The notes below the pieces were generated by a model. The model saw only the letters and a program-made list of their open reading frames with translations. It did not search any database and had not been told where the DNA came from. The position numbers and the translations under genes were made by a program. DNA of 64,000 nucleotides, taken from positions 1 to 64,000 of the IMG/VR virus record IMGVR_UViG_3300027128_000001, one strand, 5' to 3'. Of this stretch, positions 1 through 54,828 are shown one piece after another; positions within the stretch are counted from its first letter, which is position 1; each line of letters begins with the position of its first letter. Origin of the DNA: a virus.

Positions 1-3000
1 GAGACCCAGTATATCCTTGCGATCCAGTGTACCCCTGTGATCCTGTATATCCTTGAGAGCCGGTGTATCCTATTGGACCTTGAACTGTTGACGCAGAACC
101 TGTATATCCAATATCACCTTGTGATCCTGTATATCCCTGTGACCCAGTGTACCCTTGGCTACCAGTGTACCCTCTTGGTCCTATTGATCCAGTATATCCA
201 ACTTCTCCTTGAGACCCAGTATATCCTTGCGATCCAGTGTACCCTTGTGACCCAGTATAACCTACAAGACCTTGGGATCCTGTATATCCAATTGATCCTG
301 TATATCCAACTACTGTTAGGTCCCCTGAACCTACAAGCGATTGACCGGTGATTGATTTAATATTAACACCAGACACCAATGTAGCTTGCTTACCATCCAA
401 TGCAGTTTGTAGACCAGTAATGGCGCTTATTGGGTGTGCATCATCGGCACTACGACCTGTTAGTGCATTGTGCGTTGTTGCACTTGCCGAGCTAACAGAA
501 CTCGTTGCTACCTTTGCAAGGATCTTCCGCACGCCAGCAATCTGTATTCTAGCATCATTGCCAGTATAAGCTGAGCTATACTTGACAACAATTTGATACA
601 TGAATACTTGTTCGGCGAAGCTTAGTCCGTATTCGATAAAGCTTTCATTATACGCAGCATCGACTGTATCAAACATCTCTCGACCGAGCACAAGCTTAAT
701 TGATCCTCTACCTGCACGGAAGTCGTTGGTAGCAAGTAACCAATAAGAAATGTACTTACCTTCCGTTACGTTAGCAAGAGATCCACTACCAGTAGAGATT
801 AAGTTGTAGCGAGCCACATTGCTGGAATGTACCCAAGGAGTAGTGCTGCCCGATACAGTTGTATATGCTGTACCAGAATAATGTACCACTTCTAGGTTAG
901 CAGCGGTTAAAAGAGTTTGTTCCCAATCTGCTGTTGGGGAAGCCGCATGTGTGATTGTGTGAACAAGATCCTCATCGGCAATCACAATTGGAGCACCAAC
1001 ACTTAACTGAACAGCTGTATCATCATTTAATGTGTATGTTAGACCACCACCGCTTCTCCAAACCGTACCGACATTGCTATGTTGGTTGACGTGCCATGTA
1101 GTGTCGCGTTTTGATCCGTGGCGTTCATCGCCAACAATAACAGCTTTTCCTGTTGTTGAATTCCAATAAACATACGCAATGTTGACGTGCGTATCAAACA
1201 TTGGTACCGACGACTCTACAAGATTCATTGTAGTAGGCTCAATGTATATGAACCTTGCACCGTCTGTGTTAGCTATAGTAATAGTTTTGGTTGTTGATAC
1301 AGTATATAATGTACCAATGTGATAGAACTGCCAACTTCCACTAACTGGTGTCGCCGTAAGCTCTCTAGTGCTTTCATTGAACGACATCGTTAGTTGAGTT
1401 CTGTCAACTACGCCATGGATGTCTCCAGTAGCTGTGGCTACAGAAATCAATACGTTGGTAAGATCGGCTGATGATCCTGTATATCCAATTGGTCCTTGGA
1501 CTGTTGAAGCAGATCCTGTATAACCAGTAATACCTTGTGAACCAGTATACCCTATATCACCTTGACTGCCTGTATATCCTCTAGACCCCGTGTATCCAGT
1601 ATAACCACGTGGTCCTTGACCACCAGTAACAGAATCAATGATTGCAACATAATCAAGTTGTGTGGCGTGAGCTACATTACCCGCATTAGAATGGTAGATC
1701 CTAACAGTTACGTTGCCGTTATTAATGTAAGGTGTGCTTGATATCACACCTAATTGAAACTGATAAAAAGATCCTAATCCAGTATACGCCTGTATGCTGT
1801 CCCAGCCAGTTGTGACATAATTATATAATTGAACATATATTGTATGATTGGAACTCGCAGTGTAGTTAATATTAACAGCAACAAGATTAAACGATGTAAC
1901 CCCTGTAAATCCTACATCAATATGCCATGCAGGGGCTGAACCTGACCCATCAGTTATATTATATGAATCACCATCACTAAAGTTTTGAATACTAGCTAGA
2001 TTGCCAGAAACGTATACGCCACCAGTAAGATTAATACTCTGAGCTGTATAGAGCACTGATTCAGGAGTTGCACCCACTGATCCAGTGTATCCTTGTGAAC
2101 CAGTGTACCCTTGTGAACCCGTATAACCCTGGCTACCGGTGTACCCTTGTGAACCCGTATAACCCTGGCTACCGGTGTACCCTTGGGATCCCGTATAACC
2201 CCGGCTACCGGTGTATCCTTGGGATCCCGTATAACCCTGGCTACCAGCATACCCAACAGATCCCGTATAACCCTGGCTACCGGTGTATCCTTGTGAACCA
2301 GTATAACCCTGGCTACCGGTGTACCCTTGGCTGCCAGTGTACCCTTGGCTGCCAGTGTAGCCCTGGGATCCTGTATAACCCTGGCTACCGGTGTACCCTT
2401 GGCTGCCAGTGTACCCTTGGCTGCCAGTGTAGCCCTGGGATCCTGTATAACCCTGGCTACCGGCATACCCAATAGATCCTGTATAACCCTGGCTACCGGT
2501 GTATCCTTGTGAACCAGTGTATCCTTGGGATCCAGTGTATCCATCAGGCCCTTGGACTGTTGAAGCAGATCCCGTATAACCCTGGCTACCAGTGTACCCT
2601 TGTGAACCAGTGTATCCTTGGGATCCACTGTATCCCTGACTGCCAGTATACCCCAGTGAACCAGTGTATCCAGCAGATCCAGTATATCCTATTGGACCTT
2701 GTACGGTCGAAGCCGATCCTGTATATCCTTGGCTACCGGTGTATCCTTGACTTCCAGTATAGCCCTGGGACCCAGTGTATCCATCGGGCCCTTGGACTGT
2801 TGAAGCAGATCCAGTGTACCCTTGGCTGCCAGTATATCCCAGTGAACCAGTGTACCCTTGGGATCCAGTATAGCCGTCACGGCCAACATACCCTGATGAT
2901 CCAGTATATCCAATATTCCCTTGGGATCCAGTATAGCCTCCAGGATCTCCTCTAGACCCTGTGTATCCAAGTGGACCTTTGATTAGGTTTGATGGCGCAC

Positions 3001-3076
3001 TGATATGGACTCCATCAGTCGATACTGTAGTTGATACAGTATCGACTTGTTGTACTGTGACTTTTATATCAGACAT
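1..3076 (-). CDS. Collagen-like tail fiber/adhesin (3' end outside the window)
   Basis: An open frame runs from an ATG at 3076 to the window edge, giving over 1000 residues with the C-terminus missing. After about 35 N-terminal residues comes a long Gly-X-Y tract of Gly-Tyr-Thr-Gly-Ser units (about 2990-2070), a beta-rich insert (about 2050-1630), another short Gly-X-Y tract, a large non-repetitive domain (about 1470-620), a segment resembling phage-fiber linkers (QTALDGKQ, GQSLVGSGDL; about 470-310) and a third Gly-X-Y tract at the edge. This is a virion adhesin that probably trimerises as a collagen-like triple helix. The 113-residue gene at 3081-3422 lies just upstream in the same transcript. 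The receptor cannot be read from the sequence. Confidence 0.85.
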   Translation of the reverse strand, partial: MSDIKVTVQQVDTVSTTVSTDGVHISAPSNLIKGPLGYTGSRGDPGGYTGSQGNIGYTGSSGYVGRDGYTGSQGYTGSLGYTGSQGYTGSASTVQGPDGYTGSQGYTGSQGYTGSQGYTGSASTVQGPIGYTGSAGYTGSLGYTGSQGYSGSQGYTGSQGYTGSQGYTGSASTVQGPDGYTGSQGYTGSQGYTGSQGYTGSIGYAGSQGYTGSQGYTGSQGYTGSQGYTGSQGYTGSQGYTGSQGYTGSQGYTGSQGYTGSQGYTGSQGYTGSVGYAGSQGYTGSQGYTGSRGYTGSQGYTGSQGYTGSQGYTGSQGYTGSQGYTGSQGYTGSVGATPESVLYTAQSINLTGGVYVSGNLASIQNFSDGDSYNITDGSGSAPAWHIDVGFTGVTSFNLVAVNINYTASSNHTIYVQLYNYVTTGWDSIQAYTGLGSFYQFQLGVISSTPYINNGNVTVRIYHSNAGNVAHATQLDYVAIIDSVTGGQGPRGYTGYTGSRGYTGSQGDIGYTGSQGITGYTGSASTVQGPIGYTGSSADLTNVLISVATATGDIHGVVDRTQLTMSFNESTRELTATPVSGSWQFYHIGTLYTVSTTKTITIANTDGARFIYIEPTTMNLVESSVPMFDTHVNIAYVYWNSTTGKAVIVGDERHGSKRDTTWHVNQHSNVGTVWRSGGGLTYTLNDDTAVQLSVGAPIVIADEDLVHTITHAASPTADWEQTLLTAANLEVVHYSGTAYTTVSGSTTPWVHSSNVARYNLISTGSGSLANVTEGKYISYWLLATNDFRAGRGSIKLVLGREMFDTVDAAYNESFIEYGLSFAEQVFMYQIVVKYSSAYTGNDARIQIAGVRKILAKVATSSVSSASATTHNALTGRSADDAHPISAITGLQTALDGKQATLVSGVNIKSITGQSLVGSGDLTVVGYTGSIGYTGSQGLVGYTGSQGYTGSQGYTGSQGEVGYTGSIGPRGYTGSQGYTGSQGYTGSQGDIGYTGSASTVQGPIGYTGSQGYTGSQGYTGSQGYTGS
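2068..2990 (-). repeat. Tandem collagen-like (Gly-X-Y) coding repeats
   Basis: Eighteen-base units encoding Gly-Tyr-Thr-Gly-Ser-X recur almost without interruption, broken by the phrase Ala-Ser-Thr-Val-Gln-Gly-Pro. Similar arrays sit at 1-330 and about 1475-1620. The glycine at every third residue is the collagen signature. The near-identical DNA makes the array prone to slippage and to recombination with the matching arrays near 30 kb and 36 kb. Confidence 0.9.
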
Positions 3077-3080
3077 TTAA

Positions 3081-3422
3081 TTATGCACCCTGTGTTATTT
3101 GGGGTGTGATTGTTACAATACCTTCAATGATACGCTTTCTATATCCTTCAACAGTGTGATTAATTTCCACGTCATATAACCATCGTCCGGCCGGAATCAC
3201 TTCCGATTGAGATGCGGTAAGGGATAATTTAAGTTGACCAGCCACTGCGTTTATAATTGTTGCAGTGAAGTTGTATGCTACTGATGAGCTGAAGGACTTC
3301 CTCATTTGTGAAGTGGCCGCGTAATTGGTCAGATCGAGGGGAGTGCCGTCTGATGATGTTACAGTGATTATAGTTGCGAAGTCAGATCCTTGATCTACAA
3401 ACAGATTGCTAATAGCAGCCAC
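3081..3422 (-). CDS. Small virion protein next to fiber, Ig-like/BppU-like
   Basis: 113 residues starting at GTG, with GGAGA nine bases upstream. The protein looks all-beta; its pattern (DLTNY..TSQMRKS near residues 30-42, GRWLYDVEI near 80-88, then a final EGIVTITP strand) matches a small structural protein found beside fiber genes of T4-like phages, resembling the N-terminal domain of baseplate BppU proteins. It probably joins or stabilises the fiber encoded immediately downstream (4-base gap). A TATAAATA late promoter lies upstream. The function is inferred from fold impression and position only. Confidence 0.6.
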   Translation of the reverse strand: MAAISNLFVDQGSDFATIITVTSSDGTPLDLTNYAATSQMRKSFSSSVAYNFTATIINAVAGQLKLSLTASQSEVIPAGRWLYDVEINHTVEGYRKRIIEGIVTITPQITQGA

Positions 3423-3483: not shown

Positions 3484-3491
3484 ATATTTAT
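3484..3491 (-). promoter_or_regulatory. Late-type promoter TATAAATA
   Basis: An exact T4-type late -10 element on the minus strand, about 60 bases before the GTG of the 3081-3422 gene. It lies in the divergent gap with the plus-strand glycosyltransferase gene. Late transcription would need gp33 (encoded at 49.8 kb), a gp55-type sigma factor and the sliding clamp. Confidence 0.6.
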
Positions 3492-3506
3492 ACTATTGGA
3501 ATCTAC

Positions 3507-6500
3507 ATGATCTCAATCGCAATTATCGACGTTATTGGTTTGACTTATGATGGTAGCACTCTTCAAAAAAGAGGCCTTGGCGGCTCTGAATCTGCTGTCA
3601 TTCTCATGGCCAAAGAACTCCACAATCTAGGGTTCAAAGTAACTGTTTTCAACAACTGCATCGACAGAGAAGCCTCTCCGGGTATCTATGATGGGGTCGA
3701 ATACATCGACTTAAGTCAAATTGAAACTCTAGAGGATCCGAAGTTCGACGTTGTTATCGGATCACGAACAGTTGCTCCATTCCTCCCACCACACATTTGG
3801 CCTAATTGGAGCTACCGAGTTGACATCCATGAAAGGATTCGAAGACATGCTAAACTAAAGGTTCTTTGGCTCCATGATACGTTTTGTGCTGGTGATGAAC
3901 TTCTTGAAGACCTAGTAGTAAACGGTCACATTGACGAAATCTTCACACTATCTGATTTCCACACTTCGTATGTGACAAACTGTGATCACGGACGCAAACG
4001 GAACTTTGAGGTCCTTAAACATAAGGTATTTATCACTCGCAATGGTATCACCAAGTACCATGATGAGGTCGATATTGCCTCCAAAGATCCCAATCTCTTT
4101 GTATATAATGCATCCGTCACTAAAGGGATGATTCCTCTCGTCGAACGAATCTGGCCTCAATTTAAGGCGCGAGTTCCTGATGCTCAATTGAAGATCATCG
4201 GTGGATATTATAGATTCCGAGAGAATCTTGAACCAGATGAACAAGAAAAGAAGTGGCGATTGCTCGCCAACGATCCATCCAATCCTGAAAAAGGAATTGA
4301 GTTCACTGGGATCATTAAGCAAAGTGAAATTGCAGATATCCTTGCCAAAGCTTCTTACATGCTTTATCCAGGAGCATTCCCTGAGACGTTTGGCATCTCA
4401 ACTCTCGAATCACTTGCATACAATACACCGTTAATCACTTCTAGGTTTGGTGCCTTGGAGGAGACTGCTTTTTCAGAAGCATGTTATCTACTCGATTATC
4501 CAATTGAGCCTAATGGTCTATTCCCCCACATCAATGTTGACAGTCAAGCATCTAAGTTCACGGAGATGGCAGTTGCAGCATATCACAATAAGTACTTGCA
4601 TCAGCAGAAGATGTATATGTGTTCCGCTGTAAAGGACATTTGTACATGGGATACGGTTGCGCTACAATGGAAACAACACTTCTTCAGAAAGCTTGGTCTA
4701 TACCTCTCGAGGGACGAGTATAGGAAGGTTACCAAAATTAATTCTCGCGTAAAACAGGTGTTTGGCCGAAGGTTTTCCAACACCGAAGATGTATACATTC
4801 CTCGAAGCACTCAACAAAAGATTGTTGTTGTGACTCCTGCCTATAATGCTGAGCAGTATATCACCAAGTGTATCGAATCAGTAGTATCACAGGATTATGA
4901 TAACTGGGAAATGTATATTATTGATGATTGTTCCACGGACAATACGTTTAGTGTAGCAAGTCAAGCAGCGATGTTATCGGATAAAATCACTGTGATCAGG
5001 AATCCGATGAATATGGGAGCAGTGTATAATCACGTGACTACTATCAAACAGTTTTGTGATCCCGATGATATTGTAATGTTAATTGATGGTGACGATGCTC
5101 TTGTTAACGACAATCAAATCTTCCAGTTTTACAACAACCTATATGATGGATCAACAGAATTCTCTTACGGTTCTTGTTGGTCGATGATTGATAAGATTCC
5201 TTTAGTAGCACAACACTATCCGAAACGCATCAAAGAAACAAAATCATATCGCGGTCACGTATTCAACTGGAACATGCCTTACACACACCTTAGAACCTTC
5301 CAAGCGAAGTTTCTATTGCAGGTTGATGAAGATGAGTTCAAAGATGAGAATGGTGCATGGTATAAAGCTGGAGGTGATGGCGCTGTATTCTATTCTGTGA
5401 TTGAGCAAGTAGATCCAGATAAGATTAAAGTTGTGCAGGACATTGTTTACTTGTATAATGACATGAGTCCAATTAACGACTATAAAGTAAATGGTGCTGA
5501 GCAAACACGAAATGCCAATCGAATTAGGTCTTCAAACCGCGTGAAGGATAAGTTTTCTGTTGTGATTCCAACAATGTGGCGGGCAATGGATCTAATGCCA
5601 GAGTTGCTTGAAAGTCTCGTTGCCCATGAACTTGTAGGCGAAGTGATCATCATCAACAATGAAGTAAACAATACACCGACATTGAGTGTGTTGAGGCACC
5701 CTAAGATTGTAATGATTGATCAGGAAACCAATATCATGGTCAACCCTGCATGGAATCTTGGAGTGGAGATTGCCAAATACAATAAGATGTGTTTCTGTAA
5801 TGATGATATTGTATTTGATGTTAGGTTGTTTAATAAAATTTACGATCGAATTACACCAGAATATGGACCGCATGGGATCATATGGGGTAAAGAAGAATTT
5901 AACCAACCTCCCACAACTGATGGATCAATCGATTTTATCGAATGGAAGCCTGGAGATGTAATCCACTGCTTTGGACAACTCCACTTCCAACATAAAGATA
6001 GCTGGATACCCATTCACTCCGATCTAAAGATGTTTTACGGTGATGATTGGATCTTCCACAACGCACTATCTCGAAACTTAACGCCTTGGTTGATCTACAA
6101 CATCAACTTCAAGTCACGTAACTCTGCTACAGGTCTATGTGAAGATATTGTTCCTCTCGTCAATGAACGATATAAGTTAGAAACCCCAATTTATCAGAAC
6201 TGGGCATCACAACATGTCGCTAACCAAACTAATAGTAGGCTCACTATGAAAAAAATCTTGATTGCTATTCCAACAAACAAGTACGTTGAAACAACGACGA
6301 TGAAGGCAGTATATGATCTTGAGGTGCCAGAAGGATACACAACAGACCTTCAGTTCTTCTACGGCTATCAAGTAGATCAAATCCGTAATCTGATTGCTGA
6401 TTGGGCTAAGCACTATGACTATTTGTTTTCAGTAGATTCTGACATTGCATTCCCTTCCGACACCTTAAAGCGACTCCTATCTCATAACAAAGACATTGTG

Positions 6501-7541
6501 TCAGGGTTGTACATTCAACGTAAACCTGGTCAGCACATTCTTGAGCTGTATAGGAATGGAACAAACGTACCTTACCAAGACATTGAAGGTCAAGGTCTAG
6601 TGGAAATTGACGGATGTGGTTTTGGATGTGTTCTGATTAACTCCAACGTGATTCGTGCAATGGAGTATCCACACTTCGTCTACAAGTCAGCAATCGATCA
6701 CAGTAATACTCTTTCAGAAGATGTATACTTTTGTTTGAAGGCAAAAGAGAAGGGATTCAAACTATATGCAGATACAGACGTTCGCTGCGATCACTATGGT
6801 ACCACAGCATTGAAAGTTCAATCACAAAAGCCTCCTGTGATAGAGCAACCTAAAACAAACAGAGATATTGATTTTCTACTTAACCTCAGCAACACTAGGA
6901 TGATTCCCGCCGAACACGTGAACTATCTCTTTAGGATGAGAGATAGCGGATCCCAACCTCGCGTGATATACGATATCGGTGCTTGTGTACTACATTGGAC
7001 GCGCGAGGCTATCAACGCATGGCCCCACGCCAAGTTTATTGCTTTTGATGCCATGGAAGAATCCAAAGCAGTATTCGATCATTTTGGATTCGATAGCCAC
7101 ATTGGTGTGTTGAGCGATAGAGATGATGACTATGTAACATTCTACAAGAACGTCACTTCACCTGGAGGTAATTCTTACTACAAAGAAAGTACGCAATACT
7201 CTCCTGCTGCCGATCAGATGTACGGTGACTTTAATGCCCATATGCTTAGGACATTTACTCTCGATAGTATTGTTGAAGCAAAAGGGTTTCCACTCCCTGA
7301 TCTAATTAAGATCGATGTGCAGGGTGCTGAACTAGATGTACTTAAAGGAGCGACGAAAACACTAGCATCATGTAAAGATATTATTGTAGAGCTTCAGTTG
7401 GTTGAATACAATGAAGGAGCTCCTTCTTACATTGAGGTGATTACATACCTCAAGTCACAAGGATTTGAGCTGGTAGGGTCTTCATACTTCTCGAAGAATG
7501 GAGACACAGATGCCGACTTCCATTTTACAAAGGTGAAGTGA
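3507..7541 (+). CDS. Five-module glycosyltransferase and FkbM-type methyltransferase fusion
   Basis: 1344 residues. The start chosen is ATG 3507, before an IAIIDVIGL strand; the frame is open further upstream but that part is low-complexity and lies in the promoter gap. Modules in order: a GT4/GT1-like glycosyltransferase (about 1-400; GGSESAV near 25, PETFGISTLESLA as the nucleotide-sugar loop); a GT2 module (about 437-670; VVVTPAYNAEQY, IDDCSTDNT, IDGDDA as the DxD site); a second GT2-like module (from about 682; FSVVIPTMWRA, CNDDIVFD); a third (from about 914; ILIAIPTNKY, VDSDIAFP); and a C-terminal FkbM-like SAM methyltransferase (from about 1153; YDIGACVLHW, KIDVQGAELDVLKGA). It probably builds and methylates a glycan on virion fibers or the host surface. 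It is coupled to the next gene by TGATG. Confidence 0.85.
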   Translation: MISIAIIDVIGLTYDGSTLQKRGLGGSESAVILMAKELHNLGFKVTVFNNCIDREASPGIYDGVEYIDLSQIETLEDPKFDVVIGSRTVAPFLPPHIWPNWSYRVDIHERIRRHAKLKVLWLHDTFCAGDELLEDLVVNGHIDEIFTLSDFHTSYVTNCDHGRKRNFEVLKHKVFITRNGITKYHDEVDIASKDPNLFVYNASVTKGMIPLVERIWPQFKARVPDAQLKIIGGYYRFRENLEPDEQEKKWRLLANDPSNPEKGIEFTGIIKQSEIADILAKASYMLYPGAFPETFGISTLESLAYNTPLITSRFGALEETAFSEACYLLDYPIEPNGLFPHINVDSQASKFTEMAVAAYHNKYLHQQKMYMCSAVKDICTWDTVALQWKQHFFRKLGLYLSRDEYRKVTKINSRVKQVFGRRFSNTEDVYIPRSTQQKIVVVTPAYNAEQYITKCIESVVSQDYDNWEMYIIDDCSTDNTFSVASQAAMLSDKITVIRNPMNMGAVYNHVTTIKQFCDPDDIVMLIDGDDALVNDNQIFQFYNNLYDGSTEFSYGSCWSMIDKIPLVAQHYPKRIKETKSYRGHVFNWNMPYTHLRTFQAKFLLQVDEDEFKDENGAWYKAGGDGAVFYSVIEQVDPDKIKVVQDIVYLYNDMSPINDYKVNGAEQTRNANRIRSSNRVKDKFSVVIPTMWRAMDLMPELLESLVAHELVGEVIIINNEVNNTPTLSVLRHPKIVMIDQETNIMVNPAWNLGVEIAKYNKMCFCNDDIVFDVRLFNKIYDRITPEYGPHGIIWGKEEFNQPPTTDGSIDFIEWKPGDVIHCFGQLHFQHKDSWIPIHSDLKMFYGDDWIFHNALSRNLTPWLIYNINFKSRNSATGLCEDIVPLVNERYKLETPIYQNWASQHVANQTNSRLTMKKILIAIPTNKYVETTTMKAVYDLEVPEGYTTDLQFFYGYQVDQIRNLIADWAKHYDYLFSVDSDIAFPSDTLKRLLSHNKDIVSGLYIQRKPGQHILELYRNGTNVPYQDIEGQGLVEIDGCGFGCVLINSNVIRAMEYPHFVYKSAIDHSNTLSEDVYFCLKAKEKGFKLYADTDVRCDHYGTTALKVQSQKPPVIEQPKTNRDIDFLLNLSNTRMIPAEHVNYLFRMRDSGSQPRVIYDIGACVLHWTREAINAWPHAKFIAFDAMEESKAVFDHFGFDSHIGVLSDRDDDYVTFYKNVTSPGGNSYYKESTQYSPAADQMYGDFNAHMLRTFTLDSIVEAKGFPLPDLIKIDVQGAELDVLKGATKTLASCKDIIVELQLVEYNEGAPSYIEVITYLKSQGFELVGSSYFSKNGDTDADFHFTKVK

Positions 7542-8128
7542 TGTACATATATGATTCGCAGGTGTGGGATAAAGTAGATGCTAATGATTTGTGGATCTAC
7601 GATAAGCTGATTCTTTGTAGGAAGTTAGGCTATGTGTGTGGTCCTGCTGGGGTACCTCTTCCAAAACCAGGAACATACATTGTAAAACCTATCACCAACA
7701 TTCTAGGAATGGGCGTTGGTTCTTACTTCCATGAATTTACTGATACTGACACCGACTTCCTTGCACCAGGAACATTTTGGATGGAAGTGTTTACAGGACC
7801 GCATGTTAGCGTTGACGTGGTCGACGGCAAAACGGATATCGTATATGAAGGTATTCGAGATGGTCTCCAACGGTTTAGTCGTTGGACCAAACTAGACATC
7901 GAACCACAGCATGAGCCGTTTGTAATTGAGATGTCGAAGAAGTATGGCGTTGTCAACTATGAGACGATCGGCGGTAAGATCATCGAAGTCCATCTCAGAG
8001 CCAATCCTGACTGGCATAAGCACAAGGCAAGGGAACTAATCCCTGTTTGGGAAGGCGAGGAGATCCCTAAAGAAAATTTCGTATCAGATCCAGATATTGG
8101 AAGACTTGGGTTTGTAGTAGTCAGATAA
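7541..8128 (+). CDS. ATP-grasp-like protein coupled to the glycosyltransferase
   Basis: 195 residues. The ATG overlaps the stop of the glycosyltransferase gene (TGATG), with GGTGAAG as ribosome site, so the two are co-translated. Features recalling the ATP-grasp fold are a YIVKPI strand near residue 48 followed by a glycine-rich turn (GMGVGS), and a C-terminal NYETIGGKIIEVHLR stretch like the acidic metal-binding strand of ATP-grasp ligases. A ligase adding an amino group or other substituent to the glycan would fit, but this is inference; the similarity is only at motif level. It overlaps the convergent PAS gene by 8 bases. Confidence 0.5.
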   Translation: MYIYDSQVWDKVDANDLWIYDKLILCRKLGYVCGPAGVPLPKPGTYIVKPITNILGMGVGSYFHEFTDTDTDFLAPGTFWMEVFTGPHVSVDVVDGKTDIVYEGIRDGLQRFSRWTKLDIEPQHEPFVIEMSKKYGVVNYETIGGKIIEVHLRANPDWHKHKARELIPVWEGEEIPKENFVSDPDIGRLGFVVVR

Positions 8129-8993
8129 CTGGCTTAAGAGATACTACATAGAACACTGGATAGGGGTGGCCGTTCTTGATTGGCTGAACGGTAACTCTGT
8201 ATGATGGGTCGCGTGGTAGAGTCTGATCGAAGATATTACCATCCTTAACTACTTCCCACACCACATCATATATCTCGGGATTGTGTAGTATCTCTTTAAC
8301 GTGCTTACCAATTGCATCTTTGTAGTTTGATATGTGGAAATACTTTAATGATTCATCGTTGCAGAAGAACACACATGAGTTTTTGTCTATAATGAAAATT
8401 GGATGGCTTGCGGAGTTCATCGCAATGTAACAAGCCTTAGTTCTTTCATGTTCAAGATATGGCTCTGTAATATCGCGACCTACGACGATGAGCTCTTTTG
8501 GTTCACCGGCATCATATGTTGGTGTCTTAATTACATCAAAGTATCTTGTGTTACCTGATGCATCCTTTATTATCTCGATCGTTCTATTTGAATGGCCTCG
8601 TCGCCATGCTTCAGTATCTGTCTCAACACACACCTCTAATGTATCTTTGAGATGGGGTTTGATTTTACCTATATCCTCGTCTGTTTTGTTATAGTAGTCA
8701 TCGAGGATAATATCAAACAACTTCTGTCCATATATGTTCAGAGTTTTCCAGCGGCCGCTGCTGTCTTTAATTAGCAGCAGGTCATCAATCGCATCGATGG
8801 TAGTATAAAACCTCTGCGTGTAGCTGGATAGTTCCTTTTCAATATTCTGAGATGCAATACTAGCAACCTCAGACAACTCTGCTGTTGCTCGCTTCAACAT
8901 GGTCAGCCCTGTATCGAGTTCGTGGGCGAACAATGACGGCATATCTTGATCAAACGCAACACTAATCTTACTTCTACCAGAAAACCAACCCAT
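8121..8993 (-). CDS. Double-PAS sensor-like protein without an output domain
   Basis: 290 residues: a helical N-terminus (1-60), a first PAS domain (about 61-178, beginning DAIDDLLLIKDSSGRW and ending in the PAC-like LIVVGRDIT) and a second PAS domain (about 182-290, SHPIFIIDKNSCVFFCNDESLKYF). There is no histidine kinase, GGDEF, EAL or DNA-binding domain. PAS domains bind small ligands or mediate dimerisation, so the protein may act by binding a host PAS-containing regulator. It lies with a small membrane protein gene (9005-9283) on the minus strand. No cofactor-binding cysteine can be assigned with certainty. Confidence 0.8.
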   Translation of the reverse strand: MGWFSGRSKISVAFDQDMPSLFAHELDTGLTMLKRATAELSEVASIASQNIEKELSSYTQRFYTTIDAIDDLLLIKDSSGRWKTLNIYGQKLFDIILDDYYNKTDEDIGKIKPHLKDTLEVCVETDTEAWRRGHSNRTIEIIKDASGNTRYFDVIKTPTYDAGEPKELIVVGRDITEPYLEHERTKACYIAMNSASHPIFIIDKNSCVFFCNDESLKYFHISNYKDAIGKHVKEILHNPEIYDVVWEVVKDGNIFDQTLPRDPSYRVTVQPIKNGHPYPVFYVVSLKPVI

Positions 8994-9794: not shown

Positions 9795-11231
9795 TCACAA
9801 ATAAGTAATGTTTGTCGAAAATGTAGAAGTAACCTGTGTTAGACTTGTAGTCACAATACTCAAAGTGGCTGTACTTGTAGTATTTACACCAGCAGAATCT
9901 GAATCTGTGAGTGTGCTTACTGTAGAAGATCCAGACGCCGGGCCGTAAGTGAAGTTACCGAATGTTCCAGAGAAAGCTCCATTTATAGTTCCGTTTCCCG
10001 GCAACTTCGCAACTATCCAATCAGTGTTACCAACTGTTTGAGTGTCTTGGTATCCTGCGATATATACATTCCCAAAACTGTCTATACCGACACTCGTTCC
10101 CGTATCCGATCCCGTTCCATCAAGTTGTCTAGACCACTGCCAAGTCCCAGATGAGTTAAATTTGACTAAAAAGAGCTTGTTAGTAGTAAAGCCATGAGTT
10201 CCTATGCAATAAATATTATTGGACGAATCTATAGCCACTCCTGTAAAGTTGTCAACTGAACTTGACCCAATGGTTCTCTGCCATTGAATTACACCAGAAG
10301 AATCATACTTAGCTATGAATGCATCATTAGATCCAGCGCCTTGTGAAGAGGTGAAGCCCACAATATAAACGTTTCCAGAAGAATCAACTTCTACTGCCTG
10401 TCCATTATCTGTAGCGGTTCCGCCTAAGGAGCGTTGCCACTGTAACGCTCCAGAAGAATTGAACTTAGCGAGAAGTATATTCTGGATACCAGATCCTGAT
10501 GGCGGAGAAATTCCACTTACGTACACATTTCCAGAAGAATCTACAGCAACATCACTAAATTGATTAGAGCTAATGGACCCAAACGTTACTTGCCATTGAA
10601 GAGTACCAGAAGAATCATACTTAGCTATCAAAGCGTCGGTACCACCTGCACCTTGTGAGCTGGTTTGCCCTGCACAATAAATGTTGCTTGCTGAATCTAT
10701 TACAATCCCGGAAAAACTTTCACCGCCCCCGCCGCTAAGCGAACGCTGCCATTGAAGAGTACCAGAGGAATCATACTTAGCTATCAACGTATCGGAGTTT
10801 ATACCTAAAGTGGTTCCGACACAATATACATTTCCTGAAGAATCTACAGCAACATCTTGAAAGTCTGTATAAACACTCGCCGATGTGCTTCCTAAAATGC
10901 GTTGCCATTGGATGACGCCAAATTCATTAAACTTGATTAAAAGAGCATTAGCAGAGCCGCCCGGGCCTTGCGAAGCGGTGGATCCCACAACATAAATGTT
11001 TCTAGACGAATCCACGACCAAGTAGTTACCAAAATCATTATTGATCCCACCAACAGTGGCAATCCAGTAATTAGATTTACCATGAAGGTTGTTAAATCCA
11101 ATGGCCCCGCTAGGAACACCAGCGAGCGCCCTAACAGGGGCATCATTAAGACTGGTCGCAGCAGTGGAATCACGCCCTATTTCGAGGTTGATTTGCGACA
11201 TCGAAATTTCACCACTAGCTGGCAGTGTCAT
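9795..11231 (-). CDS. Beta-propeller (SBBP-repeat) tail protein
   Basis: 478 residues. The N-terminal 50 residues (LPASGEISMSQINLEIG, later GAIGFNNLHGKS) are a frequent phage tail-tip anchoring motif. Residues about 55-415 consist of repeated blades of the type VAVDSSGNVYVVG...LLAKFNSSGALQWQR, the signature of SBBP/NHL-like beta-propellers, and a Ser/Thr-rich C-terminus follows. It is likely a receptor-binding or decoration protein of the tail. Its start overlaps the end of the preceding fiber gene by 4 bases (ATGA), indicating translational coupling. Confidence 0.8.
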   Translation of the reverse strand: MTLPASGEISMSQINLEIGRDSTAATSLNDAPVRALAGVPSGAIGFNNLHGKSNYWIATVGGINNDFGNYLVVDSSRNIYVVGSTASQGPGGSANALLIKFNEFGVIQWQRILGSTSASVYTDFQDVAVDSSGNVYCVGTTLGINSDTLIAKYDSSGTLQWQRSLSGGGGESFSGIVIDSASNIYCAGQTSSQGAGGTDALIAKYDSSGTLQWQVTFGSISSNQFSDVAVDSSGNVYVSGISPPSGSGIQNILLAKFNSSGALQWQRSLGGTATDNGQAVEVDSSGNVYIVGFTSSQGAGSNDAFIAKYDSSGVIQWQRTIGSSSVDNFTGVAIDSSNNIYCIGTHGFTTNKLFLVKFNSSGTWQWSRQLDGTGSDTGTSVGIDSFGNVYIAGYQDTQTVGNTDWIVAKLPGNGTINGAFSGTFGNFTYGPASGSSTVSTLTDSDSAGVNTTSTATLSIVTTSLTQVTSTFSTNITYL

Positions 11232-14200: not shown

Positions 14201-14653
14201 TGTACCATCAACGTTTGGTATTGTCAATACGCGTGTGGTGCTAGGTGAAATGCTCGCCAGCTGAAACTGGAGTTTCTTGGAAGCGTCAATGTTATCTGTA
14301 AAGTAAGTGGAGCTATCATCAAGACTTTTGTTAGATAGTGTTTGACTTGTTGATAGATCTACAGTCCCTGATGTGTTAATACTCAGAGTTCCGCCACTCA
14401 ATGACAACCCCGTACCTACGGAAATTTGCTCAATTGACCCTGAGCCAGCAGTTGTTCTACCTAATATCCTAGATGTTGACATTGTCAATAGAGATGACCC
14501 TACAGCACCCGACACAGCCTTGGTATCTAAATCATCGGCAATAGATTTGAAGTTACCATCAATCTCCAAATTTGTTAGAGGAGCATTTGCTGCTGTAGTG
14601 CTCCCAGGCTTTGCAGGAGTTGTTGTACTCCCTCTGTACTTAATGAATGCCAT
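11228..14653 (-). CDS. Tail fiber with C-terminal S74 intramolecular chaperone
   Basis: 1141 residues. The N-terminus (AFIKYRGSTTTPAKPGS, then APLTNLEIDGNFKS) is a typical virion attachment motif. The shaft is a long series of near-identical repeats: TVTNTMLAGSIANAKLSNSS with GSTAIALGG, and SVTVDAKGRVTGGTNP with LSGYGITDA. Residues about 1054-1141 form a peptidase S74 chaperone (AYSDIRLKTDLQQIP, QTGLVAQEVEKVLPEAV, LAYGNMVGLLVEAVKEL), which catalyses trimer folding and then cleaves itself off. DNA for the C-terminal third is visibly richer in G+C than its surroundings, suggesting acquisition by recombination. It is a paralogue of the 28993-30741 fiber at its C-terminus. Confidence 0.9.
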   Translation of the reverse strand: MAFIKYRGSTTTPAKPGSTTAANAPLTNLEIDGNFKSIADDLDTKAVSGAVGSSLLTMSTSRILGRTTAGSGSIEQISVGTGLSLSGGTLSINTSGTVDLSTSQTLSNKSLDDSSTYFTDNIDASKKLQFQLASISPSTTRVLTIPNVDGTVITSSDTGTVTNNMLAGSIANAKLSNSSVTIGSTVVSLGGSSTTLSGLTSTAFSGSTSGTVTLQAAAVAGTTTITLPATTGTVITSGDSGTVTNVMLAGSIANAKLSNSSVTIGSTAIALGGTSTTLSGLTSTAFSGSTSGTVTLQPAAVAGTTTITLPATTGTVITSGDSGTVTNAMLAGSIANAKLSNSSVTIGSTVIALGGSSTTLSGLTSVTSTNFVGNASTVTNGVYTTDTGTVTNTMLAGSIANAKLSNSSVTIGSTAIALGGTSTTLSGLTSVTSTNFVGSLSGNASSSTTSSECTGNSATVTNGVYTLGNQTIAGTKTFSSTISGSINGNAATVTNGVYTLGDQTIAGTKTFSSTISGSINGNAATVTNGVYTTDTGTVTNTMLAGSIANAKLSNSSVTIGSTAISLGSTATDISGLTSTAFSGSTSGTVTLQAAAVAGTTTITLPATTGTVITSGDSATVTTTMLTNSGVTAGAYNSVTVDAKGRVTGGTNPTTLTGYGITDAQPLDADLTAIAGLAGTTGFLKKTAADSWTLDTSTYITGNQNISVTGDVTGSGSTSISLSLINSGVTAGTYKSVTVDAKGRVTGGTNPTTLSGYGITDAQALDADLTAIAGLAGTTGFLKKTAADSWTLDTSTYITGNQSISVTGDATGSGSTSISLTLANSGATAGTYKSVTVDAKGRVTAGTNPTTLSGYGITDALPLAGGTMTGNIVGTYRIGIGTTTASYPLHVVGTGASTSRIVVESTSTANTAPGVFQFLRTSTSSRLISSVGQISFTDTATDSTTFGSIISAVGNNADKTQDIYYNAVTKHIWQSNGTETGRLETGGLTIRGNSINIGNATSGEKQLFLSNDSRTVYLYNNAAGTNAGLYDQTASINRWYTDVSGNFVAYGNVTAYSDIRLKTDLQQIPNALAKVEQLTGYTYTRTDTGERQTGLVAQEVEKVLPEAVLQGEQLSLAYGNMVGLLVEAVKELSARVKELEAK

Positions 14654-28989: not shown

Positions 28990-28997
28990 TATTTATA
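28990..28997 (-). promoter_or_regulatory. Late promoter TATAAATA before the wedge operon
   Basis: An exact TATAAATA on the minus strand, 24 bases before the PAAR ATG and overlapping the last codons of the upstream fiber gene. Its position at the head of an unbroken structural operon supports late-promoter function. Confidence 0.75.
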
Positions 28998-30741
28998 CTA
29001 TCAATTTAGTAATAGCTGATTTATAATTTTGTAGTTCCTCAATTTGAGCTTGCTGCTCTTTGATAGCTTCTACTAATAGACCAACCATGTTGCCATAAGC
29101 TAGTGATAGATGATCTCCATGAACTACAGCCTCCGGTAACACCTTTTCAACATCTTGTGCTATCAAGCCTATCTGGCGATCGCCAGTGTCTGTTCGAGTA
29201 TACGTGTATCCAGTCAACTGACGCACTTTGGAAAGTGCGTCAGGTATTTGTTGTAAATCTGTTTTCAAGCGAATATCAGAGTAAGCGGTGACGTTACCTT
29301 GAGCAATGAAGTTACCGCTAGTATCAGAAGTCCATCTATAGGTGTTTGCTCCATTTGACCAACCTCCAAGTCTAAACACATTGTCTGTGTCTAGACCCAT
29401 GTTAATAGCGTATGCACCAGTTCTGTGAAACGACATAAGGGTACCGCCCGTGCCGGCATTCTGGATCTGAAACTGATCAGATCCACCGTTGGTACCTACT
29501 GTTACAGATGTAGTTTTGCTAATAGTAACGGATGTGAACTGTGGGTTAGCAGGAGCGGATCCTGTATAACCAATAATACCCTGGGATCCAGTATAACCGA
29601 TTACGGTAGACGCAGATCCAGTATAACCAATAATACCCTGGGATCCAGTGTATCCAATAATACCCTGGGATCCAGTATAACCGATTACGGTAGATGCAGA
29701 TCCAGTATAACCAATAATACCCTGGGATCCAGTATAACCGATTACTGTGGACGCGGATCCAGTATAACCAATAATACCCTGGGATCCAGTATAACCGATT
29801 ACTGTGGACGCGGATCCAGTATAACCAATAATACCCTGGGATCCAGTATAACCGATTACGGTAGATGCAGATCCAGTATAACCTTGGCTACCTGTATAGC
29901 CTTGTGATCCAGTATAGCCTCGGCTACCTGTATAGCCTTGTGATCCAGTATAACCTTGGCTACCAGTATAGCCAATTGGACCCTGTACCGTAGATGCTGA
30001 TCCAGTATAACCTTGGCTACCTGTATAGCCTTGTGATCCAGTATAACCTTGGCTACCAGTATAGCCTTGTGATCCAGTATAACCTTGGCTACCAGTATAG
30101 CCAATTGGACCCTGTACCGTAGATGCGGATCCAGTATAGCCTTGGCTACCAGTGTATCCAAGAGGCCCTACTTGCCAAGACCCATCACCGCGTAACCATG
30201 TAGAGCTATTTGCTGTGCCAGACCCTAAACGAGCAGTTGATACTGTACCAGCGTTTAAATTACTAGCATTTTGATAATAGGATCCCTCTTGACCATCTAA
30301 AAGATCAGCGTTAAGGTTTGTGACGGCAGTCGTGGACGCAACAGTAAGAGGAGCAGTTCCTGTTGTGACTGATGATTTAAGAACGGTTCCTCGAATAGAC
30401 CCATTGACTTGTAGCTTGTCGGTTGCATTATCAGTTCCCGTACCTAGCAGTACGTTCCCGCCATACTGGCCAACCTTTACCAATCCTGTATCAAGAACCT
30501 CTATGCTTGGAATTCCCGAAACATCGTTGACTGAAAATATAGTACCAGATAATGAATTGGTAACACTAAACAGCTGACCACTGGATCCTTCAAATGACAG
30601 GGTACCATTGTCTGTGGGATAGACATTTAAACTAATCGTCTGCGGCCCTGTCGACGCATCTGCACCCTTAAACTCAATCTTAGGATCAGCCGTCTGTCCT
30701 ATGTTGGGTGTTATTACTATGTTTTTATCTGAAAGTGCCAT
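28993..30741 (-). CDS. Collagen-like tail fiber with S74 chaperone
   Basis: 582 residues. The N-terminal region (ITPNIGQTADPKIEFKG, LNADLLDGQEGSYY, WLRGDGSW) is typical of phage fibers. Residues about 195-397 are a Gly-X-Y tract of GYTGSQ, GIIGYTGS and GSASTVIG units. Residues about 485-582 are a peptidase S74 chaperone (AYSDIRLKTDLQQIPDALSK, QIGLIAQDVEKVLPEAV) that folds the trimer and is autocleaved. It is a close paralogue of the C-terminus of the 11228-14653 fiber. Confidence 0.9.
   Translation of the reverse strand: MALSDKNIVITPNIGQTADPKIEFKGADASTGPQTISLNVYPTDNGTLSFEGSSGQLFSVTNSLSGTIFSVNDVSGIPSIEVLDTGLVKVGQYGGNVLLGTGTDNATDKLQVNGSIRGTVLKSSVTTGTAPLTVASTTAVTNLNADLLDGQEGSYYQNASNLNAGTVSTARLGSGTANSSTWLRGDGSWQVGPLGYTGSQGYTGSASTVQGPIGYTGSQGYTGSQGYTGSQGYTGSQGYTGSQGYTGSASTVQGPIGYTGSQGYTGSQGYTGSRGYTGSQGYTGSQGYTGSASTVIGYTGSQGIIGYTGSASTVIGYTGSQGIIGYTGSASTVIGYTGSQGIIGYTGSASTVIGYTGSQGIIGYTGSQGIIGYTGSASTVIGYTGSQGIIGYTGSAPANPQFTSVTISKTTSVTVGTNGGSDQFQIQNAGTGGTLMSFHRTGAYAINMGLDTDNVFRLGGWSNGANTYRWTSDTSGNFIAQGNVTAYSDIRLKTDLQQIPDALSKVRQLTGYTYTRTDTGDRQIGLIAQDVEKVLPEAVVHGDHLSLAYGNMVGLLVEAIKEQQAQIEELQNYKSAITKLIV
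29551..30150 (-). repeat. Collagen-like coding repeats
   Basis: Two repeat types lie side by side: a 5' part of GYTGSQ units (about 29880-30150), and a 3' part of longer units combining SASTVIGYTGSQGIIG (about 29551-29880) whose copies are almost identical at DNA level, indicating recent tandem duplication. Confidence 0.88.
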
Positions 30742-34264: not shown

Positions 34265-37051
34265 TCAAAACTCCACTTGCAATTTCTCAACATCAATCCG
34301 CTCAGCAAACACAGTATAGTAGCAATGGATCAATGATGGCATAAGTTCTGTGTTAGCAAGAAACACCTTATTGTCTTCAACTGCCTTGACGTATATAGTT
34401 TGATGAGATCCAATTGACGTTATGTTTACAGTGATTGAGGTAGGATCGACTAGCTTTGTCCAGTAGTCTGGTAGCTCAATAACATTTGTTCCTTTCAGCT
34501 TACCTCTAACATACACTCCATTTTCTGGACCCTCAAGAGACCCATAACGAAGTTTCATTCCAGGATTAGATGGATGATCAATTACGAACGACTTAGTGGT
34601 TGCAGCAAATGATCCGTTAACTTCTAGTTTATATCCGGGAGTAGTTGTTCCAATACCAACATTGCCGTTTCCTCTAATCACCATTAAGGTATTAGAGTTG
34701 TATCCGCTGCTATACAGGCTTCCAAATACCATACTAACCGTGCTACCGTCATATTCTGTGGCTATTCTACCCGTGATGTTAGTTGCATCGCTCCATCTAA
34801 TTCCGCCGCGATCGCTTCTAGAGGTATCATATGTTACGTGCAGTCTTAATAATTCTGTGCTACTGGAGCTGCTTCCTAGTTGTAACAATGCATTGGGTGA
34901 CCCTGTACCAATTCCCAGTCTACCAGACGAGTCAATGGCCATCTGAGTAGTACCATTCTTAACAAATAAAGTACCACCTGTATGATCAGCATCGATACTT
35001 CCAATATATAAAGTATTTACTGCGTTCATACCGAATAATCTAGTTGTCGTCCCGGCAGCTAGTTTGCCTTTTAGATAGGTTGCATTGTCTTGTTGTATAT
35101 CACCACTAACATGCAATTTACTTGCTGGTGAACTCGTCCCAATCCCGACGTTGCCGGAGGAGTCGAGGCGCATATACTCATTACCACCAATCGACCAAGT
35201 TTGAGCGTTCGTAGTCCCGGTGGAGTAGGTCATTTGGTAGTTAGTAATACCCGCCGTTTGAGTAATCCGCAGGCGGTTGTTGTTGCCTGTCGATGTCTCA
35301 AGCAGTTGAATGCCTACGCCGGATGCGCCGTGGATATCCAATTTATAAGCAGGCGAACTTATCCCAATGCCGAGATTTCCAGCAGAAGTGAGACGTATGC
35401 GCTCTGAGGCGTTACTGAACGTCAACGAACCGTCAACACGGTTGTTATCGATCGTCCATACGCCCCCCTGAGAGTCCAGCTTTAACCGCGCAACTGCCGA
35501 GGAGTCGGTTGAAAAGTTAGTTATCTGCGCTGCTACTACCCCCGCAACCGTTCCAGACACATCCAACTTTGACGCCGGTGCCCCCGTCCCAATGCCTACA
35601 TCACCAGTGGAATTAATACGCATGCGCTCGATACCGGCGGTGCCAAATATGAGGCCGTAGTATCCAAACATTCCGGTACCGGACCCGGCCATCCCAGTGT
35701 AGGTTCCCCACCCAATTCCATAACTAGGGACGGTTACGCCAGCAATCGTGCCCGTATCTGTCTGTGCCAAATATCCAATGCGCCCCGTTGATGGGACATT
35801 AATGTTTCCATTGACCTGTAGGACATTGGTGCTATTATCCCATGTGAGGTTTGCAGATCCTGCTGTAGTTCCACTATTGTTGTATAATACCTGTGTGTTG
35901 GACCCACCTATTGGGCCCGCAGATCCAGTGTAACCTTGGCTACCGGTATATCCTATAGCAGCAAATGCTCCAACTGATCCAGTGTATCCCTGCGATCCAG
36001 TATATCCTTGGCTACCTGTATAACCTTGTGATCCAGTATAGCCTTGGGACCCAGTGTACCCCTGTGAGCCGGTATATCCAATAGATCCGGTATACCCTTG
36101 GCTACCTGTATAACCTTGGGATCCAGTATATCCAATAGGTCCTTGTACTGTCGATGCTGAACCAGTATATCCTTGACTGCCAGTATATCCTCGAGAACCA
36201 GTATAACCTTGGGATCCAGTATACCCTTGGCTACCAGTATAGCCTTGGGATCCAGTATATCCAATAGGTCCTTGTACTGTCGAGGCAGATCCAGTATAGC
36301 CCTGGCTACCTGTATATCCAATAGATCCAGTATACCCTATTGGACCTTGGATAGTCGATGCGGATCCTGTATACCCCTGGGACCCAGTATAACCTTGAGA
36401 TCCCGTATACCCCCAGGACCCAGTATATCCCTGGCTTCCAGTATACCCTTGGCTACCAGTATAGCCTTGGGATCCAGTATATCCAATAGGTCCTTGTACT
36501 GTCGAGGCAGATCCAGTATAGCCCTGGCTACCTGTATATCCAATAGATCCGGTATATCCTTGACTGCCAGTATATCCTCGAGAACCAGTATAACCTTGGG
36601 ATCCAGTATATCCTTGGGAGCCAGTATAACCTACTCCCGCGTACGCCCCACTAGATCCTGTATATCCAATCGATCCTGTATATCCAATTGACCCAGTATA
36701 TCCTTGGCTACCTGTATATCCTTGACTACCGGTGTATCCTCGGCTACCTGTATATCCATCAACACCAATGTACCCAGCAGACCCTGTATATCCAATAGCA
36801 GTGGAAGCGGATCCTGTATATCCCCGAGGTCCACCGGGCAAAATTGATTCCCATACGGTACCATTCCATATGTTGAGTAACGGTACAGTTGTATTATACC
36901 ACAACGCTCCTAATTGAGGATCCTGTGGTGCTGTTGCAGATATTGTAACAGAACCACCATGCTCAGCTATCCATTGAAAGTTGATGTCTAGGTCGGATAG
37001 CTGAACTGTATCTTGCTTAGTAGCAAAGGTTACAGGAAGATTTATTGCCAT
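34265..37051 (-). CDS. Long collagen-like tail fiber
   Basis: 928 residues from MAINLPVTF (ATG 37051). The N-terminus (QLSDLDINFQWIAEHGGSV, PQLGALWYNTTVPLLNIWNG) is a virion anchoring motif. Residues about 73-379 are Gly-X-Y repeats, followed by a shaft of repeated LDSSGNVGIGTSSPASKLHVSG-type units. The C-terminus SLEGPENGVYVRGKL, IELPDYWTKLVDP, SITVNITSIGSHQ is a cap domain common in cyanophage fibers. DNA at about 35040-35760 is richer in G+C than flanking DNA. Confidence 0.88.
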   Translation of the reverse strand: MAINLPVTFATKQDTVQLSDLDINFQWIAEHGGSVTISATAPQDPQLGALWYNTTVPLLNIWNGTVWESILPGGPRGYTGSASTAIGYTGSAGYIGVDGYTGSRGYTGSQGYTGSQGYTGSIGYTGSIGYTGSSGAYAGVGYTGSQGYTGSQGYTGSRGYTGSQGYTGSIGYTGSQGYTGSASTVQGPIGYTGSQGYTGSQGYTGSQGYTGSWGYTGSQGYTGSQGYTGSASTIQGPIGYTGSIGYTGSQGYTGSASTVQGPIGYTGSQGYTGSQGYTGSQGYTGSRGYTGSQGYTGSASTVQGPIGYTGSQGYTGSQGYTGSIGYTGSQGYTGSQGYTGSQGYTGSQGYTGSQGYTGSVGAFAAIGYTGSQGYTGSAGPIGGSNTQVLYNNSGTTAGSANLTWDNSTNVLQVNGNINVPSTGRIGYLAQTDTGTIAGVTVPSYGIGWGTYTGMAGSGTGMFGYYGLIFGTAGIERMRINSTGDVGIGTGAPASKLDVSGTVAGVVAAQITNFSTDSSAVARLKLDSQGGVWTIDNNRVDGSLTFSNASERIRLTSAGNLGIGISSPAYKLDIHGASGVGIQLLETSTGNNNRLRITQTAGITNYQMTYSTGTTNAQTWSIGGNEYMRLDSSGNVGIGTSSPASKLHVSGDIQQDNATYLKGKLAAGTTTRLFGMNAVNTLYIGSIDADHTGGTLFVKNGTTQMAIDSSGRLGIGTGSPNALLQLGSSSSSTELLRLHVTYDTSRSDRGGIRWSDATNITGRIATEYDGSTVSMVFGSLYSSGYNSNTLMVIRGNGNVGIGTTTPGYKLEVNGSFAATTKSFVIDHPSNPGMKLRYGSLEGPENGVYVRGKLKGTNVIELPDYWTKLVDPTSITVNITSIGSHQTIYVKAVEDNKVFLANTELMPSLIHCYYTVFAERIDVEKLQVEF
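35919..36840 (-). repeat. Collagen-like coding repeats
   Basis: Eighteen-base units for Gly-Tyr-Thr-Gly-Ser-(Gln/Ile/Arg), interrupted by GSASTVQGPIGYTGS cassettes that recur at intervals of roughly 100-180 bases. Long stretches are nearly identical to each other and to arrays near 2.5 kb and 30 kb. Confidence 0.9.
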
Positions 37052-37569
37052 GGCCAAATATCCTCGTTCCAATCAGTGCGTTCGTTCCAACGATTGATCC
37101 ACACGACAGAGTTGTTGTTATTATTCTTCCAAGTTGCTGTTATTTCTTTATATCCGCCAGTTTTCAAGAAGGACATTAGACGATTTCTATTAGATGATAA
37201 GTTATTGTTGACAATGATCTGATACAATTTTGTTTCGTTATTAGCGCTGGCAGTGTAATGGAAGGTTATTGTTTCTGCTGGGTCTGCTGTAAAGCTGAAA
37301 ATTGATTGTCTATCAATTTCAGGTACACCTCGGAGAGTATCGGCTGATTGCACATCCAATCCAGATTTATATTGGACATCGTCATTGAAGGGATGCCTAA
37401 AGAACCCACTAATCTTATTGCCTAAGATTGTTACATAAGGGTTTGTTACAGATGGTGTTATAGTAACAGGATGTTCTGTTACACCATCTGTATATTTAAT
37501 AGTATACTCAAACTCCGTACCTTCATACACAGTAGCAAGAACAGTTTGATCTGGCGTAAACATTCCCAT
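37042..37569 (-). CDS. Virion-associated protein of unknown function
   Basis: 175 residues, beta-rich N-terminus (ATVYEGTEFEYTIKYTDGV) and an Asn/Trp-rich C-terminus ending WNEDIWPWQ. It lies between the gp5-like hub gene and the long fiber gene, overlapping the latter by 10 bases, so it is probably a late structural or fiber-attachment protein. No family recognised with certainty. Confidence 0.55.
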   Translation of the reverse strand: MGMFTPDQTVLATVYEGTEFEYTIKYTDGVTEHPVTITPSVTNPYVTILGNKISGFFRHPFNDDVQYKSGLDVQSADTLRGVPEIDRQSIFSFTADPAETITFHYTASANNETKLYQIIVNNNLSSNRNRLMSFLKTGGYKEITATWKNNNNNSVVWINRWNERTDWNEDIWPWQ

Positions 37570-43778: not shown

Positions 43779-43786
43779 TATAAATA
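43779..43786 (+). promoter_or_regulatory. Late promoter TATAAATA, close to a start codon
   Basis: CTTATAAATAACAGTATGGG: an exact late element ends only five bases before the ATG at 43792. With the usual 5-7 base spacing, transcription would begin at or next to the ATG, giving a leaderless message; no Shine-Dalgarno is visible there. Confidence 0.65.
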
Positions 43787-54820: not shown

Positions 54821-54828
54821 TATAAATA
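54821..54828 (+). promoter_or_regulatory. Late promoter TATAAATA
   Basis: AAATATAAATATTC on the plus strand, 31 bases before the ATG of the EF-hand membrane protein. A six-codon open frame (ATG 54841, MDCTRK) ends in ATGA with that ATG. Confidence 0.7.

Follow-up and report, generated by a model that had tools for sequence, protein, structure and literature searches.

We analyzed a 64,000-nucleotide stretch of viral DNA (hereafter, the window; positions 1 to 64,000 of the 82,037-base IMG/VR record IMGVR_UViG_3300027128_000001) and found that a large fused glycosyltransferase gene at 3507-7541 on the plus strand belongs to a phage cassette that co-occurs, in both directions, with a five-residue repeat of collagen-like tail fibres. 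The baseplate, tail and fibre genes of the record identify its source as a T4-like myophage, and we consider it likely, as read from the sequences, that the encoded protein is a soluble assembly-line enzyme with which this phage builds a methylated oligosaccharide on its own collagen-like tail fibres. The target is probably a virion fibre rather than the host surface because the cassette and the fibre motif accompany each other, the gene lies among fibre genes, and the protein has no membrane segment. Hence, of the two targets offered by a first-pass annotation of the window, fibre or host-surface glycosylation, the first is strongly favored by the co-occurrence, whereas the second finds no support in a protein that lacks a membrane segment and tracks a fibre motif.

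The frame contains 1344 codons open from an ATG in the translation of the window; a mechanical call of the same open reading frame (ORF) starts upstream, at TTG 3390. The first-pass annotation had described one 1344-residue protein with GT4, GT2, GT2-like and GT-A-like glycosyltransferase (GT) modules plus a methyltransferase, and Pfam, PHROG and structure models bear this domain reading out (aa, amino acids; SAM, S-adenosylmethionine; STIV, Sulfolobus turreted icosahedral virus):

3507..7541, plus strand: GT/methyltransferase fusion P0001, 1344 aa (Pfam, PHROG, AlphaFold)
3507..4751, plus strand: GT4 module, aa 1-415, GT-B fold, retaining-type (Pfam, fold match, invariant residues)
4812..5576, plus strand: GT2a module, aa 436-690, GT-A (Pfam, invariant residues)
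5604..6176, plus strand: GT2b module, aa 700-890, GT2-like GT-A, optional in the family (relatives, model, DD motif)
6246..6818, plus strand: GTA module, aa 914-1104, phrog_1574, GT-A fold, STIV A197-like (PHROG, fold match)
6954..7538, plus strand: FkbM-type SAM methyltransferase (MT) module, aa 1150-1344, optional in the family (Pfam, relatives)

A domain search and structure prediction had been proposed as checks of this reading, and the loss of catalytic residues as grounds for abandoning it. Three Pfam families were matched: Glycos_transf_1 at aa 189-320 (3.8e-11), Glycos_transf_2 in two stretches at aa 441-572 (2.3e-30), and Methyltransf_21/FkbM (PF05050) at aa 1171-1322 (2.1e-16; 60.9 bits against a cut-off of 22.7). 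PHROG 1574 matched at aa 915-1104 (3.8e-23), spanning 13-236 of its 240 profile positions. Along with Pfam scores above the cut-off, the GT4 module shows the GT-B fold and the EX7E motif with a basic residue, GT2a a DXD-type motif and the catalytic Asp, and MT a SAM-binding motif, as expected of the GT4, GT2 and FkbM families, respectively. GT2b, which is recognizable mostly via its relatives and the structure model, is well folded in AlphaFold and had no significant match among profiles of solved structures. The catalytic residues are retained throughout 39-44 relatives: K206, E293 and E301 (EX7E) of GT4 and D474, D527, D529, D530 (DGDD 527-530) and D624 of GT2a are invariant in 44 sequences, and D766 and D767 (DD 766-767) of GT2b, D977 and D979 (DSD 977-979) of GTA, and D1156, G1158, D1270, Q1272 and E1275 of MT in 39.

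Structure prediction gave confident models that matched GT-B/GT4, GT-A and SAM-methyltransferase structures, with a mean predicted local distance difference test score of 87.3 for residues 1-694 and 89.2 for residues 695-1344. The placement of domains relative to one another is not confident in the second model (predicted template modeling score 0.43), as is expected when modules sit on linkers. In Foldseek, the first model matched GT4 enzymes of the MshA, PimA and BshA type; the second had STIV A197 on top, followed by GT-A enzymes, including polypeptide N-acetylgalactosamine (GalNAc) transferases, and SAM methyltransferases. The GTA match to STIV A197 was significant at the profile level as well (1.9e-6). 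The presence of polypeptide GalNAc-transferases and STIV A197 among the matches of the GTA half would count for a fibre-protein acceptor. Homology of GTA to enzymes of the COLGALT/L230 type was rejected: the COLGALT1 profile gave only a nonsignificant E of 0.4-0.7 over a 33-residue stretch.

No membrane segment was found in the fusion protein, whose 19-residue hydropathy maximum is 1.36, and this bears on whether the cassette might instead modify a host surface polysaccharide (O-antigen or core), thereby excluding superinfecting phages. GTs in the host-recognition cluster of pelagimyophages have been read in the literature as tools acting on host lipopolysaccharide (LPS) (PMC7029224), and enzymes of the GT2 and GT4 families often take part in LPS synthesis. 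Yet, apart from the missing transmembrane segment, a host-surface role does not predict that the cassette tracks a fibre repeat, nor does it fit a location in the tail-structural block, and we regard it as unlikely; the reciprocal link of enzyme and motif points to the phage's own fibres. O-antigen glucosylation of the GtrB type was rejected, as there is no hydrophobic segment and GT2a resembles the GtrB domain only partially.

The module order is not a chance product of this window, as it recurs in at least 134 other viral loci at ~45-75% identity. These relatives come from alignment scans of viral contigs and form a lower bound, the family being larger than counted. Throughout this widespread family of T4-like phages the order is fixed as GT4-GT2a-[GT2b]-GTA-[MT]. 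Among 135 complete loci, the window included, GT4 and GT2a are fused in 134, the GT4-GT2a-GTA core occupies one ORF in 109, and all five modules share one ORF in 45; GTA forms a separate following ORF, usually together with MT, in 25. MT is present in 112 and GT2b was detected in 77 of these loci. One locus consists of three ORFs (L005), some relatives carry an extra GT4-like module (L106, L109 and L135), and one locus, L009, is split between GT4 and GT2a; at about residue 908 the window reads through a point at which L009 stops and restarts with a new ATG. What stays constant is thus the cassette, and how far it is fused varies. The "giant fusion" of the first-pass annotation is thus real here but merely one of several states of a common cassette. 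An assembly error is an unlikely source of the fusion, given an identical ORF on a second contig (L002) and the 45 loci with all five modules in one ORF. A cellular origin was also rejected, as no cellular relative turned up when GTDB was scanned once with the alignment of the family. No deposited phage record matched GT4-GT2a across most of its length. In one further locus (L004, 13208-14224, minus strand), a DUF7487 gene lies between the GT ORFs on the opposite strand; the ORF preceding it ends in a divergent partial copy of GTA, and the gene looks like an invading mobile element.

The proposed substrates are the Gly-X-Y shafts built from G-[YF]-T-G-S repeats, of which this phage has 127 GYTGS copies in three fibres (60, 25 and 42):

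2..3076, minus strand: collagen-like fibre of at least 1025 aa that runs off the record, 60 GYTGS motifs, probable substrate
28993..30741, minus strand: second fibre with a collagen-like region, 25 GYTGS motifs, probable substrate
34265..37072, minus strand: third fibre with a collagen-like region, 42 GYTGS motifs, probable substrate

We quantified the repeat in the collagen-like runs of cassette loci, which were chosen without reference to the motif. Tyr or Phe occupies X in 71% of Gly-X-Thr triplets, and the next triplet begins with G-S in 1536 of 1570 cases after G-[YF]-T versus 14 of 631 after any other Gly-X-Thr. These runs contain little proline (0.068 per triplet). A five-residue unit this rigid, which accepts either Y or F but keeps T and S constant, resembles the recognition motif of an enzyme, although a structural reason is also possible. 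As Phe can replace Tyr, Thr (or Ser) is more likely to be the attachment site.

Cassette and motif were found to accompany each other from either side. Starting from the motif, we drew 50 viral contigs with a DNA pattern matching G[YF]TGSx arrays as the sole criterion, and 38 of them encode the cassette at E<1e-100 (a weak 39th match, 8.8e-4 in G002, was left out of the count), as do 28 of the 35 array contigs of at least 30 kb. The control comprised 37 T4-like contigs drawn by terminase motifs: one pattern gave 19 contigs, another gave a larger set, and the long contigs of both were pooled. A control based on baseplate gp6 yielded only six relatives and was dropped. The cassette occurs in 1 of the 37 control contigs and arrays in 2, the single cassette contig being one of these two (Fisher test for 38/50 versus 1/37, p=6.7e-13). 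In the reverse direction, tandem G[YF]TG[S/T] arrays occur in 35 of 50 cassette contigs, and a reversed control pattern gave zero. Grouped at 70% identity, the 47 cassettes compared form 17 clusters, and at least one contig with arrays is present in 15 of them.

Several observations weigh against a strict coupling of enzyme and motif. As the contigs are related to one another, shared ancestry inflates the significance and the p-value is too optimistic, so that the cluster count is the safer statement; moreover, the control was matched by terminase motif and not by clade. The cassette is missing from 12 of the 50 array contigs (7 of 35 at 30 kb or more): 9 of the 12 have no GT2 or GT4 match in the available stretch and 3 have such a match of another kind, and while most of the 12 are fragments, three measure 61-116 kb. 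Conversely, the strict pattern finds no arrays in 15 of the 50 cassette contigs, some of them fragments but one of 122 kb, and in some phages (such as L020) arrays and cassette lie ~20 kb apart. Given arrays without cassettes and cassettes without arrays, there may be acceptors besides [YF]TGS, and some arrays may be modified by other enzymes or left unmodified. What places the enzyme in virion glycosylation, understood as the work of an enzyme that is encoded next to virion genes and tied to an acceptor in the virion, is its neighborhood and this co-occurrence, and these two only.

The cassette contigs that lack arrays would also suit an enzyme acting on another virion part (capsid, tail tube, LamG or beta-propeller fibres), with the arrays merely co-inherited in the structural block. 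A LamG-type structural protein is indeed the upstream neighbor in many loci, and glycans are reported on the capsid and tail tube of mycobacteriophages (as cited in PMC12619734). Simple co-inheritance is difficult to reconcile with the T4-like control contigs, which mostly lack both features, and with arrays located in three separate fibre genes here and in most cassette clusters, and we rate another virion target as quite improbable.

If the collagen-like fibres are the acceptor, one GT would attach the first sugar to the repeat, most likely to the invariant Thr in the Y position, the remaining GT modules would add further sugars to form a short chain, and a sugar would be O-methylated by the FkbM module, probably as a cap. 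As the core of GT4, GT2a and GTA is constant, a chain of about three sugars would be expected, to which GT2b would add a fourth and FkbM the O-methyl group. That GTA acts first is a reasonable guess, because a GTA homologue stands alone near a Thr-rich collagen-like protein in vir323 (below). The lack of a membrane segment and the location among virion genes suggest a cytosolic enzyme that modifies freshly synthesized fibre chains prior to or in the course of their assembly into trimers. The glycan may stabilize the proline-poor triple helix or shield the fibre. Taking this further, we tentatively propose that [YF]-T-G-S in a Gly-X-Y context could be a dedicated O-glycosylation sequon of aquatic T4-like phages, on whose Thr the cassette would write a methylated oligosaccharide, and that glycosylated Thr in the Y position might replace hydroxyproline in stabilizing very long proline-poor shafts. 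If true, this would amount to phage-encoded collagen glycosylation with a recognizable sequon, with a bearing on adsorption, on host range and on how bacteria or phages obtain stable collagen without hydroxyproline. The motif also offers a ready peptide substrate for an assay.

Comparable pairings exist in other phages. One is vir323 (host Methanobacteriales), where a collagen-like tail protein with many GDT and GAT triplets is preceded, two genes away, by a stand-alone phrog_1574 enzyme that shares 35% identity with the GTA module. In the cultured cyanophage S-CAM7 (L426, 12657-18098), a GAT/GST-rich collagen-like fibre is directly followed by two GT4-type genes and a 2-oxoglutarate-Fe(II) oxygenase; these GTs were rejected as cassette homologues at the profile level, and the pairing is analogous only. 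[YF]TGS is absent from the vir323 and S-CAM7 regions read. By analogy, the two pairings would fit different enzymes reading different Gly-X-Thr repeats. S-CAM7 is a laboratory system for testing phage collagen modification. In LR756502.1, a 642-kb uncultured phage, a GYTGS-like query matches at 26 places and a GT2a-like domain is present, so that huge phages may have the pairing too. The fusion protein has matches in about 80 Synechococcus phage records, all of them over the GTA module among the matches listed, and four Kyanoviridae regions (L157, L158, L159 and L162) encode a stand-alone phrog_1574-type GT just before the gp25/gp6/gp7 baseplate genes. This cyanophage GT is a homologue of GTA adjoining baseplate genes, but it lacks the GT4-GT2a partners, and the regions read contain no [YF]TGS arrays.

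Each element of the proposed system is known singly. In Paramecium bursaria chlorella virus 1 (PBCV-1), A064R unites two GTs and a methyltransferase in one protein and A111/114R three GTs, which build and methyl-cap capsid-protein glycans (PMC9614988, PMC7826918). These are likewise viral multi-GT proteins directed at the virus's own protein, A064R also with a methyltransferase, but, according to their descriptions, they differ in domain make-up and order, in their eukaryotic host and in their N-linked capsid glycans, whereas the cassette has up to four GTs plus MT and collagen-like fibres as proposed acceptor. Mimivirus L230, a collagen lysyl hydroxylase/glucosyltransferase, glycosylates the virus's own collagen-like proteins (PMC9614988); it adds a single glucose to hydroxylysine, while the cassette lacks a hydroxylase domain and the residues available in the repeat are Thr, Ser and Tyr. 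STIV A197, whose proposed acceptor is the STIV capsid protein (PMC10551542), is a stand-alone viral GT-A enzyme matched by GTA, but it has a single domain and belongs to an archaeal virus. Bacillus BclA is a glycosylated collagen-like shaft protein of the exosporium (PMC8968730), that is, a bacterium's own spore protein, whereas here the shaft belongs to a phage fibre, its repeat is GYTGS, and the enzyme is a fusion encoded by the phage. In the literature searched, a scope that leaves out most subscription journals, no phage assembly line dedicated to a repeat motif of collagen turned up, and the string GYTGS had no match in the papers listed.

The genes around the cassette fit a fibre target. 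The fusion gene adjoins a fibre-assembly protein, with a divergent collagen-like fibre 0.4 kb upstream, and the nearest gene clusters across relatives are collagen-like fibres, LamG-type virion proteins and the fibre-assembly protein. The neighbors in the window are:

3081..3422, minus strand: tail-fibre assembly protein (phrog_1084/phrog_3304; PHROG)
7538..8128, plus strand: co-directional gene, phrog_3577 (unknown function), overlapping the end of the fusion by 4 nt
8121-8993, minus strand: 290-aa protein with two PAS domains (domain match)
9795-11231, minus strand: virion protein with seven SBBP beta-propeller repeats, in the fibre block
9795-14653, minus strand: fibre genes further downstream of the cassette

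The arrangement of a plus-strand gene between minus-strand fibre genes, as first annotated, was confirmed, except that the immediate minus-strand neighbor downstream is the PAS-domain protein and not a fibre. A phrog_3577-type gene is kept behind the cassette in six loci and is a possible partner of the fusion. Within the fibre block, the PAS gene meets the plus-strand unit of the cassette end to end; a PAS protein is unusual among tail genes.

This location also bears on whether the cassette glycosylates phage DNA (hypermodified bases) as a defense against restriction. Phage GTs are known to glycosylate DNA (as cited in PMC12619734), and proteins of the thymidylate-synthase family, which include hydroxymethylases, are encoded in 7 of 17 long cassette records. 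The other 10, this one among them, have no such protein, the gene lies among fibre and not replication genes, and the [YF]TGS association would go unexplained, making DNA a very improbable target. A Tet_JBP search gave no match, an uninformative result since the controls were silent too. The earlier description of the assembly line as "self-contained" is doubtful: no nucleotide-sugar epimerase or nucleoside triphosphate (NTP) transferase was matched in the 82-kb record, and the sugar donors presumably come from the host.

Ten phage tRNAs are encoded at 62-77 kb of the record (in the window record and in L012), including Gly(tcc), Tyr(gta) and Thr(tgt). Gly, Tyr and Thr dominate the fibre repeats, but the repeat codons prefer ACT for Thr, so that there is no simple match to the tRNAs. 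Regarding transcription, no excess of sigma-70 promoters was found before the cassette. We also searched there for TATAAATA, which we take to be the T4 late-promoter consensus, and the sole nearby copy lies on the minus strand, facing the fibre genes. The window holds matches at 3485-3492 (minus), 28990-28997 (minus), 43779-43786 (plus), 48995-49002 (minus) and 54821-54828 (plus); their total count is not above chance, but all five lie within ~75 nt upstream of a correctly stranded gene start, and the one at 3485-3492 points to the fibre-assembly and collagen-like fibre genes.

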